Positions 2,900 through 62,693 of a stretch of 64,000 bases of DNA are shown here, in pieces. The translations under genes were made by a program, and so were the position numbers. Source of the DNA: Agrococcus sp. KRD186 (lineage in GTDB: Bacteria; Actinomycetota; Actinomycetes; Actinomycetales; Microbacteriaceae); assembly GCF_017168255.1 (NCBI RefSeq), contig NZ_JABFAP010000001.1:500141-564140 (forward strand). The letters are read 5' to 3'. Position 1 is the first letter of the stretch; each line of letters begins with the position of its first letter. The notes under the pieces were generated by a model that saw only the letters and a list, made by a program, of their open reading frames with translations, was not told the DNA's origin and searched no databases.

Positions 2900-4600
2900 T
2901 CACAGCCGCTCCGCCTCGCCCGCGGCGACCAGCTCGGCCACGGCCACCCGGCGGATCTTGCCACCGGCCGTGCGCGGCAGCCGATCGGCCCGGTAGTAGC
3001 GGCGCGGCACGAACTGCTCGGGCAGCAGGCGGCGCAGCTCGCGCTGCATCACCGCCTTCGGCGGCACGACACCGGCACCGAGCATTTCGCCGGCACCGAG
3101 CATTTCGCCGACACTGAGCATTTCGCCGACACTGAGCATTTCGCCGACACTGAGCATTTCGCCGACACTGAGCGCGTCGCCCGCAGCGGCCGTCGGCTCG
3201 CCGCCGGGCGCTCTCTCGACCACCGACGCGCCCTCGACCACCACCGCGACGATCGAGCCGAGCGCGGCATCCGGCAGCGCGATCGCGCAGCACTGCTCGC
3301 AGCCGGGCACGGTCGCCAGCGCCCGCTCGACCTGCGGCAGCGACACCTTGTGGCCTCCGGTCACCGCCATGTCGCCGGCACGGCCGGCGAGCACGATCTC
3401 GCCATCGACGAGCGCGGCCAGATCGCCGACGCTCGACCATCCGTCATCGCCGGTGATGCGCTCGTGGCTCGTCGCGGTCAGGTAGCGCTCGACCTGCGAG
3501 GCGACGCGGATGTGCAGGGTGCCGATCTCGCCGTCGGGCACGCGGGTGCCGGCATCGTCGCGCACCTCGGCCTCGAGCCCGGCGAACGGGGTCAGGCGCG
3601 TGCCGTCGCCGGCGTCGCTGTAGCCGATGAAGCCGATCTCGCTCGCGCCGTAGTAGCTGCGCAGCACCGCCTGCGGGGCGGCCTCGGCGAAGCGCTCGCG
3701 GATCGCCTGGCTCTGGTTCGCGCCGCCGGTGATCACCCAGCGCAGCGAGGCGAGCGCGCTGCCGGCGCCCGGCGGCTCGCGCCGGGCCGCGGCGGCCAGC
3801 GCCAGGAGCATCGACGGCACGCCCACGAAGCGCGCGATGCCGTGCTGCGCGATCGTGCGCACCGCATCCGTCGCGTCGAACCGCGACTGCAGGTGCAGCG
3901 AGCCGCCGGTCGCAAGCGCCTCGACGAGCGCGTAGAGCGTGAGGCTGTAGGAGACCGGGCCGGGTGCGATCGTCTGCACACCGGCCCTCGCGAACAGCGG
4001 GCCGCGGCTGGCCTCGACGTTGTAGTCCCAGCTGCCGCGGGTGCGGAGGAAGCCCTTCGGCAGATCGGTCGTGCCGCTCGTGAACAGCAGCAGGTAGGGC
4101 TCGTCGCGCGGGCGCACCTCCGGCCCGGCCGAGACCGGGGCGGCAGCGGCCAGCGCGTCGAAGCGCTCGAGCCCGATCACGCTGCCGTGCCAGGCTCCAT
4201 GCTCGAGCCCGGCCAGCGCCCCCTCGAAGTCGCCATCGTCGGTGATCACGATCGCCGCGTCGACTCGCCGGATGGTCGTCAGTCGGTGCTCGAGCGGCCA
4301 CAGCGGGTCGATCACCGCGACGATGGCGCGGAACGAGGCGATGCCGACGACGAAGCGGCCCACGTCGATCGCGCGGGAGAGCGAGACGGCGACGATCGGC
4401 ACGCCGCCGGTCTCACCGTCGCTGGCGCTCGCGGGCCGGCCCTCTCGGTGACGAGCGTCGAGCAGCTGCTCGAGACCCGAGCGGATGCGCGTGCTGGTCT
4501 CGCGCAGGTCGCCGTACGTCAGGCGCTCCCCGTCTCCCGCGAGCGCGAGCCGGTCGGGGTCGCTCGCGGCGAGCTCGATCGTCGTGCGGGTGAACGTCAC
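2900..4600 (-). CDS. AMP-forming acyl/aryl ligase (ANL superfamily) with hexapeptide repeat
   Basis: 566-residue adenylate-forming enzyme that would activate a carboxylic acid with ATP. Motifs seen: the P-loop-like LLLFTSGTTDLPKG (about 171-183), YYGASEIGFIGY, the hinge region SSVGDLAALVDGEIVLAGRAGDM and a C-terminal TAGGKIRR containing the catalytic Lys. The GTG start at 4600 lies 6 nt after a TAGGAT hexamer, so the mRNA may be leaderless. Between the core and the catalytic-Lys subdomain (about residues 477-508) sits an in-frame tandem repeat of LSVGEM/LGAGEM units. It is followed 40 bp downstream by a ketosynthase, suggesting starter-unit activation and condensation. The substrate (fatty or aromatic acid) cannot be read from the sequence. 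Confidence 0.85.
   Translation of the reverse strand: MTFTRTTIELAASDPDRLALAGDGERLTYGDLRETSTRIRSGLEQLLDARHREGRPASASDGETGGVPIVAVSLSRAIDVGRFVVGIASFRAIVAVIDPLWPLEHRLTTIRRVDAAIVITDDGDFEGALAGLEHGAWHGSVIGLERFDALAAAAPVSAGPEVRPRDEPYLLLFTSGTTDLPKGFLRTRGSWDYNVEASRGPLFARAGVQTIAPGPVSYSLTLYALVEALATGGSLHLQSRFDATDAVRTIAQHGIARFVGVPSMLLALAAAARREPPGAGSALASLRWVITGGANQSQAIRERFAEAAPQAVLRSYYGASEIGFIGYSDAGDGTRLTPFAGLEAEVRDDAGTRVPDGEIGTLHIRVASQVERYLTATSHERITGDDGWSSVGDLAALVDGEIVLAGRAGDMAVTGGHKVSLPQVERALATVPGCEQCCAIALPDAALGSIVAVVVEGASVVERAPGGEPTAAAGDALSVGEMLSVGEMLSVGEMLSVGEMLGAGEMLGAGVVPPKAVMQRELRRLLPEQFVPRRYYRADRLPRTAGGKIRRVAVAELVAAGEAERL
3080..3172. repeat. 18-bp minisatellite inside the ligase gene
   Basis: Five consecutive 18-bp units beginning GAGCATTTCGCC (starts at 3080, 3098, 3116, 3134, 3152) plus a diverged sixth start at 3170. 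On the coding strand each unit reads GEM-L-S/G-V/A-G, so copy-number change would stay in frame. The two units nearest the C-terminal side carry GGCACC instead of GACACT. Confidence 0.9.
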
Positions 4601-53938: not shown

Positions 53939-55324
53939 ATGACCGACACCATCGCGACACCTTCGTTCATGGAGCACGGCTCCATCGAGCAGGGCCTCGA
54001 TGCGTATCGAGCGCTGCCGATCAAGCAGCAGCCCACCTGGCAGGACGAGGCCGCGATCGAGCGGGTGCGGCGCGAGCTGCGCAGCTCGCCGCCGCTGGTG
54101 TTCGCGGGTGAGGTCGACATGCTGCGCGATCGGCTCGCCTCCGCCGCCCGCGGCGAGGCCTTCCTGCTGCAGGGCGGCGACTGCGCCGAGACCTTCGCCG
54201 GCGCCACGGCCGACAACATCCGCAACCGGGTCAAGACGATCCTGCAGATGGCGGTCGTGCTCACCTACGGCGCGGCGATGCCGGTCATCAAGATGGGCCG
54301 CATGGCCGGCCAGTTCGCGAAGCCTCGCTCGAGCGACAACGAGACCCGGGGCGAGCTGACGCTGCCCGCCTACCGCGGCGACATCGTCAACGGCTACGAC
54401 TTCACGCCGGAGTCGCGCGCGGCCGACCCGCAGCGCATCCTGCGCGGCTACCACATGGCCGCCTCGACGCTGAACCTGGTGCGCGCGTTCACGCAGGGTG
54501 GCTTCGCCGACCTGCGCCAGGTGCACTCGTGGAACAAGGGCTTCGGCGAGAACCCCTCGTTCGCCCGGTACGAGGCGCTCGCCGGCGAGATCGACCGCGC
54601 CGTGCGCTTCATGGAGGCGGCCGGCGCCAACTTCGACGAGCTGAAGGGCGTCGAGTTCTTCACCGGCCACGAGGGCCTGCTGATGGACTACGAGCGCCCG
54701 ATGACGCGCATCGACTCCCGCACGGGCCTGGCCTACAACACCTCCAGCCACTTCCAGTGGATCGGCGAGCGCACGCGCGAGCTCGACGGTGCCCACGTCG
54801 ACTTCTTCTCGCGGGTGCGCAACCCGATCGGCGTGAAGCTCGGCCCGACGACCACGCCCGCCGACATGGAGGCGCTCGTCGACCGGCTCGACCCCGAGCG
54901 CGAGCCGGGCCGCCTGACGTTCATCACCCGCATGGGCGCCGGCCGCATCCGCGACGTGCTGCCCGGCCTGCTCGAGGCCTCGAAGTCGCTCGAGTCGACG
55001 CCGCTGTGGGTCACCGACCCCATGCACGGCAACGGCATCACCACGAAGAACGGCTACAAGTCGCGCCGCTTCGACGACGTGGTCGACGAGGTGCGCGGCT
55101 TCTTCGAGGCGCACCGCCAGGTCGGCACGTTCCCCGGCGGCATCCACGTCGAGCTCACCGGCGACGACGTCACCGAGTGCCTCGGCGGCTCGGAGGCGAT
55201 CGACGAGGTCGCCCTCGAGACCCGCTACGAGTCGCTCTGCGACCCGCGCCTGAACCACATGCAGTCGCTCGAGCTCGCGTTCCTGGTGGCCGAGGAGCTG
55301 CGCGCCGCGCCTCGCCCTGCATAG
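53939..55324 (+). CDS. Class II 3-deoxy-7-phosphoheptulonate synthase
   Basis: 461 residues, type II DAHP synthase, the first step of aromatic amino acid synthesis (erythrose 4-phosphate plus PEP). Landmarks: QQPTWQDEAAIERVRREL, LLQGGDCAETFAGAT with a metal-ligand Cys, KMGRMAGQFAKPRSS, the GANFDELKGVEFFTGHEGLL region and WVTDPMHGNGITTKNGYKSR, and GGIHVELTGDDVTECLGG. The ATG at 53939 is chosen; a TTG 12 nt upstream is possible. The last codons and the stop lie inside a 33-bp tandem duplication. Confidence 0.93.
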   Translation: MTDTIATPSFMEHGSIEQGLDAYRALPIKQQPTWQDEAAIERVRRELRSSPPLVFAGEVDMLRDRLASAARGEAFLLQGGDCAETFAGATADNIRNRVKTILQMAVVLTYGAAMPVIKMGRMAGQFAKPRSSDNETRGELTLPAYRGDIVNGYDFTPESRAADPQRILRGYHMAASTLNLVRAFTQGGFADLRQVHSWNKGFGENPSFARYEALAGEIDRAVRFMEAAGANFDELKGVEFFTGHEGLLMDYERPMTRIDSRTGLAYNTSSHFQWIGERTRELDGAHVDFFSRVRNPIGVKLGPTTTPADMEALVDRLDPEREPGRLTFITRMGAGRIRDVLPGLLEASKSLESTPLWVTDPMHGNGITTKNGYKSRRFDDVVDEVRGFFEAHRQVGTFPGGIHVELTGDDVTECLGGSEAIDEVALETRYESLCDPRLNHMQSLELAFLVAEELRAAPRPA

Positions 55325-55365
55325 CCGTCCGCGCGCGCCGCGCCTCGCCCTGCCTAGCCGTCCGC
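55300..55365. repeat. 33-bp tandem duplication across the DAHP synthase stop codon
   Basis: Two adjacent 33-bp units (55300-55332 and 55333-55365) differ at one base (CATAGC in the first, CCTAGC in the second). The first contains the functional stop codon TAG; the second keeps a TAG outside the gene. A partial third unit follows. It is an exact slippage-type repeat. Confidence 0.85.
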
Positions 55366-55393
55366 GCGCGTCGCGCGGGGTGATGCGACGGAT

Positions 55394-57412: not shown

Positions 57413-57835
57413 GTGACGCACGACGCAGCGAACCCAGACACCGTGAATCCAGACACCGCGGCCCAGGCCCCGATCGCCGACGACGCACCGGCGGCCGACG
57501 CCGCGCCGCAGCAGCCCGAGTGGCTCACCGTGCCCGACCTGGTGGAGATCCTCGATGAACCGGTGGGACGCATCCACCGCCTGATCGAGGAGCATCGCCT
57601 GCCCGCGACGCGCAGGAACGGCCCCGTGCAGGTGCCGTCAGCGGTGCTGCGCGACGGCGAGCCGATGTCCGAGATCCGCGGCACGCTGCTCGTGCTGCTC
57701 GACCTGGGCTTCACTGAGGACGAGGCGCTCGACTGGCTGATCAACGACGACGACGCGCTCGGCACCACGCCCGTCGACGCGCTCCGCCAGGGGCGCAAGG
57801 CCGAGGTGCGCCGCGTCGCCCAGATGCAGGGCTGA
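57413..57835 (+). CDS. Rv2175c-family DNA-binding protein (kinase substrate)
   Basis: 140 residues from the GTG at 57413. A disordered acidic N-terminus of about 35 residues, with repeated NPDT and several Thr, is the likely phosphorylation site. The remainder is the Rv2175c fold: EWLTVPDLVEILDEPVGRI, LIEEHRLPATRRNG, then GTLLVLLDLGFTEDEALDWL. The mycobacterial homologue binds DNA and loses binding when PknL phosphorylates it. The divergent kinase gene next door supports the same pairing. Its last 30 nt are copied exactly 625 bp downstream. Confidence 0.88.
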   Translation: MTHDAANPDTVNPDTAAQAPIADDAPAADAAPQQPEWLTVPDLVEILDEPVGRIHRLIEEHRLPATRRNGPVQVPSAVLRDGEPMSEIRGTLLVLLDLGFTEDEALDWLINDDDALGTTPVDALRQGRKAEVRRVAQMQG

Positions 57836-57838
57836 GCC
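57805..57838. repeat. 34-bp direct repeat, left copy (3' end of the Rv2175c-type gene)
   Basis: GGTGCGCCGCGTCGCCC... at 57805-57838 covers the last ten codons, stop and three bases of the gene. An identical 34-bp copy is at 58430-58463. The bases on either side of the two copies differ, so the boundary is sharp. Confidence 0.95.
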
Positions 57839-57845
57839 CTTCTCC

Positions 57846-57931
57846 GTCGCTGATCGAGTAGCGCGAAGCGCGTATCGAGATCACCCCGCGCGGTCGCTGA
57901 TCGAGTAGCGCGAAGCGCGTATCGAGATCAC
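57846..57931. repeat. REP-like repeat, two direct copies
   Basis: A 33-bp palindrome-like core beginning TGATCGAGTAGCGCG occurs at 57851-57883 and 57898-57930, each preceded by GTCGC. The core contains GCGC-GAA-GCGC, able to fold into a small hairpin. An inverted copy is at 58389-58421. The three copies are identical over 33 bp. Confidence 0.93.
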
Positions 57932-58017
57932 ACCGGCTGCCGTGGGCATCGAGGTCCCGATCCACAGCCACAGCAAGGCACGTCCGCGCTTCCGTCGTGC
58001 CATGGCATCCTCTGCCG

Positions 58018-58347
58018 ATGCCTTGGGTCTACATCCTCCGCTGCCGCGACGGCTCGACGTACGTCGGGAGCACGCGTGACATCGACCGCCGGCTCGATCA
58101 GCATCAGCGCGGCCAGGGTGCCGCGTACACGCGCCGCCGGCTGCCGGTCGAACTCGCGTTCGCGCACTTCGACGAGTCAGTGGCTGCGGCGTTCGCGCTC
58201 GAGAAGCAGATCCAGGGATGGAGCCGGGCGAAGCGCGAGGCGCTCATCCGGGGCGACTTCCAGGCGATCGCTCGGGCTGCGAAGAAGCGCGATTGGGAGG
58301 GCTACCGTCGGCGACAGAGCGCACAGGAGCGCGGCGAGCCGGCTTGA
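58018..58347 (+). CDS. GIY-YIG-family nuclease inside a repeat-bounded unit
   Basis: 109 residues from the ATG at 58018. The GIY-YIG fold is clear: Tyr5 in PWVYILRCRDGS, YVGST with Tyr15, the DIDRRLDQHQRGQGAAYTRR helix with Arg, and Glu62 in FALEKQIQGWSR followed by AKREALIRGDF, the UPF0213/YhbQ branch. The catalytic Tyr, Arg and Glu are present, so it should nick or cut DNA. It is flanked by two direct REP-like copies on its left and one inverted copy on its right, and the whole is bounded by an exact 34-bp direct repeat. This placement suggests a role in moving or copying the repeat unit. Confidence 0.9.
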   Translation: MPWVYILRCRDGSTYVGSTRDIDRRLDQHQRGQGAAYTRRRLPVELAFAHFDESVAAAFALEKQIQGWSRAKREALIRGDFQAIARAAKKRDWEGYRRRQSAQERGEPA

Positions 58348-58388
58348 GTTCGAGACGCGCTGCGCGCGCTCCACCGCCGGGGGCTGCG

Positions 58389-58421
58389 TGATCTCGATAC
58401 GCGCTTCGCGCTACTCGATCA
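58389..58421. repeat. REP-like repeat, inverted copy
   Basis: The exact reverse complement of the 33-bp cores at 57851-57883 and 57898-57930, here beginning TGATCTCGATACGCG. It lies 41 bp after the GIY-YIG stop codon. A degenerate relative (TCGAGACGCGCTGCGCGCG) is at 58350-58368, immediately after the gene. Confidence 0.93.
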
Positions 58422-58429
58422 CCGAGATC

Positions 58430-58463
58430 GGTGCGCCGCGTCGCCCAGATGCAGGGCTGAGCC
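58430..58463. repeat. 34-bp direct repeat, right copy
   Basis: Identical over 34 bp to 57805-57838, the 3' end of the Rv2175c-type gene. Here it is not in a gene and ends three bases before the stop codon of the polyprenyl synthase gene on the other strand. Between the two copies lie 591 bp containing only the REP-like repeats and the GIY-YIG gene. Confidence 0.95.
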
Positions 58464-58465
58464 GC

Positions 58466-59587
58466 TCAGCGGTCGCGCTTGGCGACCGTGTCGGCGAGCC
58501 GCTCGAGCTCGAGCACTGCCGAGCGCGAGAGCTCGCCCTCGTGCAGCGACTCGAGCGCCTCGCCGACCGCGCGGTCGATGAGCGCCTCGAGGCGCTGCGG
58601 CGCCTCCGAGCGCTGGATGGCGTCCTGCAGGATCGCGATCTGCCGCTCGTCGAGCTCGCGGTCGCCCAGCAGCTCGTCGAGCATCGTGCGCACGCCGGAG
58701 GAGAGCCGCTGGCGGGCGATCTCCACCAGCACCGTGCGCTTGCCCTCGCGCAGGTCGTCGCCGGCGGGCTTGCCCGTCACCTCCGGGTCGCCGAAGACGC
58801 CCAGCAGGTCGTCGCGCATCTGGAAGGCGACACCGACCGGCAGCCCGTAGCCGGCGAGCGCGTCGAGCTGCGCCTCGGATCCGCCGGCCAGCAGCGCGCC
58901 CAGCGTCAGCGGCGCCTCCACCGAGTACTTCGCCGACTTGTAGATCGCCACGGTGTGGGCGCGGTCGAGCAGCGTCGCGGGCTCCTGCCTGATCCACGCC
59001 GCCTCCTCGAGCACGTCGAGGTACTGCCCGAAGGTGACCTCCTCGCGCATGCGGCGGTAGGCGTCGTGCACCGCGTCGCCCTGCGCCGCCTGCCTGCATG
59101 CGCGCAGCATCCGGTCGTCCGCCCAGTTGAGCAGCAGATCGCCGGCCAGCAGCGCGGCGTGCTCGCCCCACGAGCCGGCGTCGCCGACCCACTCGCCGTC
59201 GCGGTGCAGCGCCTCGAGCGAGCGGTGCATCGACGGGCGGCCCCTGCGGGTGTCGGACTGGTCGATGATGTCGTCGTGCACGAGCGCCGCGGCGTGGAAG
59301 AGCTCGATGGCGGTGGCGACGCCCACCGCGTCTGCCCAGGCCGGGTCCTGCTCGGTGCCGGTGGTGTGGGATGCGTCGGGTCGCGCAGCCGTCACGGCAT
59401 GCCAGCCCCAGAGCACGAAGGCGCTGCGCACGCGCTTGCCGCCGGAGACCATCTCACGCACCAGCCGGATGAGGGGCGTGGCGTCAGAGGCGAGCTCGGT
59501 GAGCGCCGCCTCCCGCTCGTCGAGGTACTGCTGGATCGACGCCTCGACGGCCTGGGCGAAGCGCTGCTGTGCTGACACAGGGTCCAT
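58466..59587 (-). CDS. Polyprenyl diphosphate synthase
   Basis: 373 residues from the ATG at 59587; an ATG 15 nt upstream is possible, and neither has a good ribosome site. The two Asp-rich motifs are present: HDDIIDQSDTRRGRPS (first, DDIID) and FQMRDDLLGVFGDPE (second, DDLLG), with the KRVRSAFVLWG and KSAKYSVEAPLTLG helices. The enzyme builds prenyl diphosphates for menaquinone or carotenoids from IPP. The chain length depends on residues before the first Asp motif and cannot be stated with confidence. Confidence 0.9.
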   Translation of the reverse strand: MDPVSAQQRFAQAVEASIQQYLDEREAALTELASDATPLIRLVREMVSGGKRVRSAFVLWGWHAVTAARPDASHTTGTEQDPAWADAVGVATAIELFHAAALVHDDIIDQSDTRRGRPSMHRSLEALHRDGEWVGDAGSWGEHAALLAGDLLLNWADDRMLRACRQAAQGDAVHDAYRRMREEVTFGQYLDVLEEAAWIRQEPATLLDRAHTVAIYKSAKYSVEAPLTLGALLAGGSEAQLDALAGYGLPVGVAFQMRDDLLGVFGDPEVTGKPAGDDLREGKRTVLVEIARQRLSSGVRTMLDELLGDRELDERQIAILQDAIQRSEAPQRLEALIDRAVGEALESLHEGELSRSAVLELERLADTVAKRDR

Positions 59588-59664
59588 GCTATTCAGCCAC
59601 ATGCGATTGACAGCCGGAGGCCGTAGACTGAACGTCCGCACCGGTTGAGCGAAAGGGGTGCGAG

Positions 59665-60389: not shown

Positions 60390-60821
60390 GTGTTCCTCGG
60401 CACCCACACGCCCAAGCTCGACGACAAGGGCCGCGTGATCCTCCCCGCCAAGTTCCGGCAGGAGCTCGAGGGCGGCCTCGTGCTCACGCGCGGCCAGGAG
60501 CGCTGCATCTACGTCTTCTCGAGAGCTGAGTTCGAACGAGTGCACGACCAGATCCGTCAGGCGCCGCTCACCTCCGCTGGTGCGCGCGACTTCCTGCGCC
60601 TCTTCCTCTCGGGCGCCTCAAACGAGCAGGCCGACAGCCAGCACCGCCTCACGATCCCGCCGAACCTGCGCGAGTACGCCGGCCTCGGCCGCGAGCTGAC
60701 CGTCATCGGCGCCGGCACCCGCGCCGAGATCTGGGACACCGCAGCCTGGAACGAGTACTACGCGGCCAAGGAGGCCGACTTCGCCTCGACGACGGAGGAG
60801 GTGATCCCCGGCATCTTCTGA
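60390..60821 (+). CDS. mraZ: MraZ transcriptional regulator
   Basis: 143 residues from the GTG at 60390, with a GAGAGGGGG ribosome site. The two AbrB-like SpoVT domains carry the DxxxR motifs [14 protein letters not shown] (about 10-23) and [14 protein letters not shown]. The protein forms a ring and represses its own operon through the GTGGAG repeats 50 bp upstream. It heads the division cluster here. The next gene, rsmH, follows after 97 bp. Confidence 0.95.
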
Positions 60822-60918
60822 CCCGGCTCGTGACCCTCAACTGGGCGCCGCGACACACCTTCCCCGGTGTCGCGTCGCGCGGATGGGGATCAGGAGCCGG
60901 GACGGAGCAGGGAACGAC

Positions 60919-61926: not shown

Positions 61927-62693
61927 GCAACGCCGCCATCGCCAGCATCCACGTCGACCCCTCCGGTGTCGATCAGCACGGTGTCGATCAGCACGGTGTC
62001 GATCACCGCGTCGATCCCGGTCTCGCTCCCGATCCCCGCCGGCACCTGCGGGCGCTGCCCACGCCCAGCGTGCGACGCGCACCGCGGCTCGTGCACGGCG
62101 TGCTCGCCCTCGCCGGCCTCGCGGGCATCGTCGCGGCGCAGCTCGGCCTGACGGTCGTGATCAGCGAAGGCGCCTACACGCTCAACGCCCTCGGCGGCGA
62201 GTCGAGCGCGCTGGCCCGCACCGAGCAGGCGCTGGGGGAGGACGTCGCGGTGCTCGCCTCGCCGCAGCACGTCGCAGTCGCCGCCGACGAGCTCGGCATG
62301 CTCGCCGGGCAGCCCTCGCAGTTCCTGACCCTCTCGGGCACGGCGACCGCCGGCGGCCCCGACGCGCTGCACATGCAGGTGCCGGCACTCGACCGCTTCG
62401 GCATGTACGTGCCCAATGCGCTGCTGCAGACGCAGCCACAGACCGCCGCAGCCGTCGCGCAGGTGCGCGAGGAGATCGCGCCCTACCCGGGCATGCTACT
62501 GCCGGCCGGCGAGGGTGCTCCCGCAGCGGCAGCTGATGACGCGGCCGCCGCAGCGACGACCGAGTCCGGTGACGGCGCCGCAGCGACGACCGAGTCCGGT
62601 GACGGCGCCGCAGCGACGGCCGAGACGGGCGCGGCGGCTGACGCTGCGCAGCCCGCGCCCGGCACACTGCTGCCGGCGACTGCGGGCGAGTGA
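61923..62693 (+). CDS. FtsL-like division protein with low-complexity termini
   Basis: 256 residues, one membrane helix (VHGVLALAGLAGIVAAQLGLTVVIS) preceded by a charged cytoplasmic tail with a threefold VDQHG repeat. The short periplasmic coiled coil, with Ala/Leu repeats, is followed by an unusual 100-residue acidic Ala/Thr/Glu-rich tail with a repeated ATTESGDGA unit. The gene lies between rsmH and ftsI, the position of ftsL in actinobacteria, which supports the role as a divisome scaffold. Sequence alone does not prove it. The length exceeds the usual 120-200 residues because of the tail. Confidence 0.75.
   Translation: MSNAAIASIHVDPSGVDQHGVDQHGVDHRVDPGLAPDPRRHLRALPTPSVRRAPRLVHGVLALAGLAGIVAAQLGLTVVISEGAYTLNALGGESSALARTEQALGEDVAVLASPQHVAVAADELGMLAGQPSQFLTLSGTATAGGPDALHMQVPALDRFGMYVPNALLQTQPQTAAAVAQVREEIAPYPGMLLPAGEGAPAAAADDAAAAATTESGDGAAATTESGDGAAATAETGAAADAAQPAPGTLLPATAGE
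61965..62009 (+). repeat. 15-bp tandem repeat in the ftsL-like gene (N-terminal)
   Basis: Three consecutive 15-bp units starting GGTGTCGATCA (61965, 61980, 61995) encode GVDQH, GVDQH and GVDHR. The first two are identical and the third differs near its end. The repeats are in frame. Confidence 0.85.
62551..62630 (+). repeat. 30-bp tandem repeat in the ftsL-like gene (C-terminal)
   Basis: Two identical 30-bp units at 62551-62580 and 62581-62610 (beginning CAGCGACGACCG) plus a degenerate partial third. They encode the ATTESGDGAA repeat of the acidic tail, so copy-number change would stay in frame. Confidence 0.88.

Follow-up and report, generated by a model that had tools for sequence, protein, structure and literature searches.

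A GIY-YIG nuclease gene bounded by inverted REP-type hairpins in Agrococcus, and the pairing of its relatives with repeats in two phyla

The locus

The window, a stretch of 64,000 nucleotides from Agrococcus sp. KRD186, carries a gene for a small GIY-YIG nuclease between a Rv2175c-type gene and a convergent polyprenyl synthetase gene (Table 1). Three exact copies of a REP palindrome accompany the nuclease gene; the two on its left are direct copies of each other, 47 bp apart, and the one on its right is inverted. An exact 34-bp direct repeat encloses the unit. Its left copy forms the 3' end of the Rv2175c-type gene and takes in the stop codon. The direct repeat, the origin of its left copy, the two direct and one inverted palindromes and the single intact GIY-YIG gene had all been described in an earlier, sequence-only reading of this DNA, and all were borne out by the searches; the 33 bp given there for the palindromes are the 31 bp of Table 1 with one flanking base per side.

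Table 1 Features of the nuclease locus, in coordinates of the window
Feature	Position	Strand	Remarks
Rv2175c-type gene (wHTH + Rv2175c_C), host gene with duplicated 3' end	57413..57835	+	PF18367 2.6e-19, PF21531 3.1e-9; GTG start assumed; stop codon 57833-57835
34-bp direct repeat, left copy = host gene 3' end	57805..57838	+	exact match to right copy; single copy at relatives' empty sites
Insertion of 625 bp when compared with empty sites: the 591-bp unit and one 34-bp copy	57839..58463		colinear alignment once removed
REP palindrome 1 (GATCGAG...CGAGATC)	57852..57882	+	exact copy
REP palindrome 2, direct copy of palindrome 1	57899..57929	+	exact copy
TCCACA, DnaA-box-like site	57961..57966	+	57 bp upstream of GIY-YIG start codon; spacing kept in many relatives
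GIY-YIG nuclease gene, 109 aa	58018..58347	+	PF01541 3.8e-18
REP palindrome 3, inverted	58390..58420	-	exact copy
34-bp direct repeat, right copy	58430..58463	+	exact match to left copy
Polyprenyl synthetase gene, convergent right neighbour	58466..59641	-	PF00348 8.6e-50

With up to three mismatches allowed, the 34-bp repeat has only 2 matches in the 64-kb window, against 0 in 100 shuffles, and a simple composition model gives about 1e-9 expected pairs of exact 34-mers in 64 kb. The palindrome, searched with the same tolerance, matches only three times in the whole 3.10-Mb genome, all at the locus, so that the flanking repeat is not dispersed there in near-identical form. This genome contains one stand-alone GIY-YIG gene and a second PF01541 match in a long frame, presumably UvrC. 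Elsewhere in the window, a tandem array of an 18-bp unit (CCGACACTGAGCATTTCG, 5.7 copies) was seen at 3064-3181, and arrays of 30-bp and 33-bp units at 62537-62624 and 55300-55376; an mraW RNA (Rfam RF01746) at 60815-60912 is ordinary for a division cluster.

The nuclease and its upstream site

The window enzyme is a GIY-YIG protein of the UPF0213 type. In a 38-sequence alignment, Y5, R25 and H29 were found to be invariant and Y15 and E62 nearly so. With a GIY-YIG domain and conserved residues at the catalytic positions, the protein belongs to the GIY-YIG/UPF0213 group. The AlphaFold2 model of the 109-aa enzyme is confident (mean pLDDT 89). By profile, the UPF0213 structures 1zg2 and 1ywl belong to the same family (4e-23 and 9e-18), and these two were the top matches when Foldseek was run with the model, at a TM-score of only about 0.5; both are structural-genomics entries whose titles name no function. 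NCBIfam gave no match above its cut-off for the enzyme, and PADLOC gave only weak matches.

For comparison, a set of 128 loci was used, of which 49 are actinobacterial and 79 alphaproteobacterial. Of at least 578 further loci in a scan with one genome per species, the best 80 were taken; 79 count as alphaproteobacterial and one as actinobacterial. The alphaproteobacterial loci come from Methylobacterium, Bradyrhizobium, Microvirga, Rhizobium, Reyranella, Caulobacter, Sphingomonas and others, some being titled only bacterium or Proteobacteria.

Within 150 bp upstream of the GIY-YIG gene, TCCACA was found in forward orientation at 22 and in reverse (TGTGGA) at 12 of the 49 actinobacterial loci (L029-L077); in 49 far windows, the counts were 3 and 1. 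The forward site lies at -57 to -59 of the start codon in 21 of the 22 cases (19 in the genus and two others), and nine more actinobacterial loci have TGTGGA 47-52 bp upstream of the start. L057 and L069 carry CTGTGGATAAC at this site, a putative DnaA box. A site of this type precedes the gene at 1 of the 79 alphaproteobacterial loci (from the best 80 of at least 578).

The repeats and their linkage to the gene

The repeats in Actinobacteria and Alphaproteobacteria share the form stem-GAG-(variable stem-loop)-CGA-stem. Examples are GATCGAGTAG...GTATCGAGATC from the window, GGTCGAGGAG...GTCACGAGACC from further genomes of the genus and CCTGAGGAGC...GTCTCGAAGG from Reyranella and Microvirga. A looser repeat pattern gave 12 matches in the window genome, where the dispersed copies keep the arms and differ in their stems. 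Among ten distinct sequences from this genome, the stem pairs fully in six and to 4/6 in one, and pairing stops after one or two pairs in three. In hairpin energy, the repeat from Reyranella stands out as exceptionally stable (z -4.2); the window's 33 bp, folded alone, do not (z -1.0 for either strand).

By the rule stem-GAG...CGA-stem, which was drawn from the same loci on which it was counted, at least one hairpin lies within 400 bp of the GIY-YIG gene at 125 of the 128 loci (47/49 actinobacterial and 78/79 alphaproteobacterial, the latter from the best 80 of at least 578), L056, L067 and L116 being the three loci with none in that range; hairpins stand on both sides of the gene at 96/128 (43/49 and 53/79). 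The density near the gene was 5.13 hairpins per kb at actinobacterial loci, against 0.85 in far windows, which may still contain array members, and 3.50 against 0.38 at alphaproteobacterial ones (from the best 80 of at least 578). The nearest upstream hairpin is forward at 39/47 actinobacterial and 40/60 alphaproteobacterial loci and the nearest downstream hairpin inverted at 34/43 and 47/71, the alphaproteobacterial counts again coming from the best 80 of at least 578.

A motif-free test, independent of this rule, was made by comparing the 400 bp upstream with the 400 bp downstream. Inverted similarity with a score of at least 20 was found at 40/49 actinobacterial and 40/75 alphaproteobacterial loci (from the best 80 of at least 578; 4 of the 79 were left out for short flanks) and in none of the distant windows (0/48 and 0/64, together 0/112). 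None of 22 windows around presumed UvrC domains reached it either, although this control is weak because the compared windows adjoin the matched domain and lie partly inside the gene; UvrC was presumed from match strength and frame length, and 46 hairpins were counted in about 70 kb of these loci. When the two sides were taken from different loci, this score was reached in 9/147 actinobacterial and 29/225 alphaproteobacterial comparisons, as expected if related genomes share repeats, and direct similarity across the gene was also common (23/49 and 44/75), because many units hold repeats in both orientations; both alphaproteobacterial counts derive from the best 80 of at least 578 loci. Gene and repeats are physically linked, and the linkage recurs in two phyla.

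Alphaproteobacterial plasmid copies of the nuclease gene were seen at L105-L108, with a frameshift in L107 and a stop in L108; repeats were seen by eye alongside the plasmid-borne L105, L106 and L107. A duplicate unit (L048/L051) was considered as a caught transposition and rejected. The two are identical over all 3261 bp fetched and the genome has 8% contamination; the pair is therefore uninformative, and L051 was dropped from the counts.

Association across genomes

In the bacterial family, the nuclease (E <= 1e-10) was found in 74 of 299 genomes and 34 of 85 genera, with up to three genes per genome. The median number of repeats per genome was 37 with the gene and 1 without it, and at least ten repeats were present in 52/74 gene-positive against 24/225 gene-negative genomes (odds ratio 20, p 2e-22); many of these genomes hold from tens to more than 1000 dispersed copies. 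Because species are related, the comparison was repeated within genera. In the 25 genera that have both kinds of genome, carriers average more repeats in 20 and fewer in 5 (g3, g26, g57, g78 and g85), and the observed carrier difference was reached by 0 of 10000 within-genus permutations.

Fewer than ten repeats of the pattern are held by 22 of the 74 gene-positive genomes, and some of these use another repeat sequence. Conversely, 24 of the 225 gene-negative genomes still have at least ten repeats, with 1198 in G068. When these 24 were searched with PF01541, a single match, taken as UvrC, was found in 18, none in 2 and extra GIY-YIG matches of another kind in 4. Hence, this nuclease is not needed for the repeats to be kept or to come about, and these genomes count against a strict dependence on it. 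Orphan repeat populations were seen in G068, G048, G091 and G298, which have between 100 and 1198 repeats and in which no stand-alone member of this GIY-YIG family was found.

Match between repeat type and nuclease clade

The distances between repeat arms were compared with those between nucleases in Mantel tests, from which 7 of the 128 loci were left out (short protein or no usable match). The correlation was 0.62 in the genus (22 loci), 0.38 in actinobacteria (47), 0.28 in alphaproteobacteria (74, from the best 80 of at least 578) and 0.48 overall (121), and in each case 0 of 2000 permutations were as high. Within the genus, the arms GAGTAG...GTATCGA are those of clade 1, GAGGAG...GTCACGA those of clade 2 and GAGCCG...GTGTCGA those of clade 3; at its closest hairpin, L035 does not follow its nearest relative, L046. 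G013 has three nucleases and three repeat types. Genome-wide, the 8 clade-2 carriers have 6 to 167 clade-2 repeats each; the remaining 16 genomes of the genus have a median of 0 and a range of 0 to 116 (p 0.001), and four of these non-carriers hold 18 or more: G014 (116), G016 (71), G002 (59) and G018 (18). Enzyme and repeat are matched clade by clade.

It might be argued that REP clusters between convergent genes are mere safe landing pads or terminators, on which a free-standing gene of the homing type lands by chance. The slots inspected do sit at gene 3' ends, where REPs are common according to Di Nocera et al. 2013 (PMC3733652). Chance landing, however, leaves unexplained why the repeats track the nuclease clade within one genus and why a hairpin lies within 400 bp of the gene at 125/128 loci (the alphaproteobacterial ones from the best 80 of at least 578), and we regard this account as very unlikely. 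The link between palindromes and GIY-YIG family that the sequence-only reading had supposed is upheld by these same 125 loci, by the repeat-rich carrier genomes and by the clade match. The recurrence of this pairing of gene and repeat in two phyla suggests that a large class of bacterial repeats is acted on, and may be spread, by enzymes of this family.

Empty sites and the 34-bp duplication

The Rv2175c-type gene is present in 23 of 24 genomes of the genus and is adjoined by a GIY-YIG unit in 2 of these 23 (G000 and G004). In G001, G002 and G021, the convergent polyprenyl synthetase gene begins a few bases after it. Once the 625 bp are removed, the window aligns colinearly with all three (216/236, 215/240 in one block and 207/239 identical positions, respectively); hence, it was concluded that the empty sites there hold one copy of the 34 bp. 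This is the outcome that had been looked for when a comparison with relatives lacking the unit was first proposed. Among eight genomes compared by smc, G001 is the nearest (95.4%), and as its site is empty the insertion looks recent. Most simply, the unit was gained recently in the window lineage, after the split from G001.

G004 has a unit at the same place, with seven intact palindromes and one degenerate on the left and two inverted ones on the right, and without the right-hand 34-bp copy. Between G000 and G004, the GIY gene is 86.9% and the host gene alongside 87.4% identical, a divergence compatible with separate insertions of the two units into the slot as well as with an old common origin followed by several losses. 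If the unit were old here and common to G004, the 34 bp could have been duplicated later, by slippage or recombination, and have nothing to do with the insertion. The G004 unit, with no right-hand copy, and the equal divergence of the nuclease gene and its neighbour favour such a history, but a later copy that exactly gives the filled site as the empty one plus 625 bp, in one block against G002, is less simple, and old shared descent requires independent losses in G001, G002, G006, G016 and others. A later duplication is considered less likely than not.

In a search for direct repeats of at least 16 bp within 600 bp, from which those with repeat-like strings were filtered out, a flanking repeat longer than 22 bp was found at 1 of the 128 loci, the window only (the alphaproteobacterial loci being from the best 80 of at least 578). 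A constant target-site duplication, as in insertion sequences, was thereby rejected for duplications of 16 bp or more. A long target duplication as a general product of the element found no support, the duplication being absent from the G004 unit and nothing comparable being found at the other 127 loci. Most probably, the 34 bp were duplicated in the repair of that single insertion, by the filling-in of a staggered break or by a template switch, and are not a fixed target duplication of the family.

Reused slots and dispersed pairs

Different units were found in the same intergenic slots. The 3' end of opuAC is followed by a clade-1 unit in G016, by clade-2 units of one orientation in G006 and G023, by a clade-2 unit of the opposite orientation in G001, by a lone repeat in G004 and by neither unit nor repeat in G011 and G018. 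At the 3' end of smc, units lie in opposite orientations in G023 and G013, and there is none in G018 and G004. No duplication comparable to the 34 bp was found at the opuAC and smc loci examined. In G020 (L011), the slot after the Rv2175c-type gene holds a different repetitive stretch, with units containing GAGCTGCACGAGGTGGC.

The alphaproteobacterial repeat pattern was found in 20 of 22 genomes, 1 to 69 times per strand and with no control matches; two Sphingomonas genomes had none of it. Inverted pairs of repeats are spaced, among the places listed, by 27 nt in 18/19 cases in Maricaulaceae, 35 nt in 13/17 in Methylobacterium and 18-24 nt in 23/24 in Caulobacter. With their differing stems and near-constant spacing, these pairs look like REPINs; they come from three alphaproteobacterial genomes, and the two left repeats of the window are direct. 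A replication-strand bias of the repeats in G004 was hinted at in raw counts and was not significant per cluster (type 2 p 0.20, type 1 p 0.21).

Proposed mechanism

The window unit is read as an example of a widespread pairing, selfish or semi-domesticated, in which a small GIY-YIG nuclease lies between inverted copies of the REP-type hairpin that belongs to it, the enzyme nicks the hairpin and repair spreads the copies; a probability of roughly 0.6 is given to this reading. The nuclease would recognise the conserved GAG...CGA context of its cognate hairpin, probably while the latter is extruded or single-stranded during replication, and would nick it. Host repair or strand exchange may then copy the REPs into other intergenic sites and, occasionally, the whole REP-nuclease-REP unit. 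In the window, a unit would have entered the few-base gap after the Rv2175c-type gene. Transposition of the unit is something that we infer and did not observe directly. Besides the repeat-rich genomes without the gene, several findings speak against this reading: carriers with fewer than ten repeats, the five genera in which carriers have fewer, clade-2 repeats in genomes that lack the clade-2 nuclease, the lack of near-identical dispersed copies in the window genome, and the equal divergence of nuclease gene and host gene between G000 and G004.

The recently described Ssn family of Neisseria comprises GIY-YIG site-specific single-strand nucleases whose target repeats (NTS) are dispersed. The likeness lies in a GIY-YIG enzyme with cognate repeats dispersed in its genome, as was found here; to our knowledge, units bounded by inverted repeats, empty sites and reused slots do not figure in the work on Ssn. 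The present enzyme could likewise cut single strands site-specifically, with the dispersed repeats serving as its targets and thereby tuning recombination or the uptake of DNA; gene and repeats would then spread by ordinary homologous exchange. Cognate repeats beside the gene and elsewhere, the clade-specific match and the absence of a fixed target duplication would all fit this without transposition. On the other hand, the occurrence of units at a number of unrelated sites, one slot holding them in either orientation, and inverted pairs of near-constant spacing with different stems look like the work of a replicating unit, and an Ssn-like role without transposition is considered unlikely. A nuclease that spreads its own hairpins is preferred.

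Comparison with known systems

Free-standing GIY-YIG homing endonucleases of the I-TevI type resemble the window unit in their catalytic domain and in being present or absent at intergenic sites. They differ in that the 109 amino acids here leave little room for a separate DNA-binding domain, that no intron was seen and that cognate palindromes stand on both sides of the gene.

Hairpin repeats of this size resemble REPs as described in PMC3733652, and the palindromes might be ordinary REPs moved by RAYT, a Y1 transposase, encoded elsewhere in the genome. Y1_Tnp, however, was found in 0 of 22 actinobacterial genomes, the window genome and the repeat-rich ones included, and a control search matched in 5 of 14 well-known genomes. 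From these 22 genomes, RAYT was rejected as the mover of the palindromes, and the explanation is given next to no credence; the earlier view of a system different from RAYT/REPtron was supported by the same search. In alphaproteobacteria, Y1_Tnp matched in 2 of 4 genomes searched.

The CGTC-tagged REPs (Di Nocera et al. 2013, PMC3733652) are palindromic repeats mainly of alphaproteobacteria, a superfamily which, according to that paper, apparently has no dedicated transposase; the features given there are an unpaired CGTC at one end, a CCA tail and an 8-9 bp stem with AT in the first and second position. Some Bradyrhizobium repeats near GIY-YIG genes have CGTCATCC at one end and begin with CGTC, and are candidates for this class. 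A literature search, with preprints and most subscription papers outside it, found nothing linking GIY-YIG nucleases to REPs. We put forward tentatively, at somewhat less than even odds, that GIY-YIG nucleases are dedicated mobilisers of the large stem-GAG...CGA-stem class of REP-type palindromes in Actinobacteria and Alphaproteobacteria, a second, independently evolved system of REP mobilisation beside RAYT, and that this class may include repeats for which no transposase has been reported. With a clade-specific nuclease next to the repeats, it can be tested directly and cheaply what moves them, and if mobilisation is true, two unrelated nucleases have given rise to the REP life style.

There is a parallel with REPtrons and RAYT. 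Shared features are a gene for a small nuclease with inverted palindromes on its two sides, non-autonomous copies dispersed in the genome, orphan repeat populations, a repeat type matched to the enzyme clade and, among the places listed in three alphaproteobacterial genomes, near-fixed inverted pairs. The gene between the REPs of the window unit is a GIY-YIG gene, unlike the Y1/HUH transposase gene that defines a REPtron, and because this defining transposase is absent, with none found in the 22 actinobacterial genomes, the unit is not a member of the REP/RAYT system; the GIY-YIG/REP pairing works like REP/RAYT with an unrelated enzyme.
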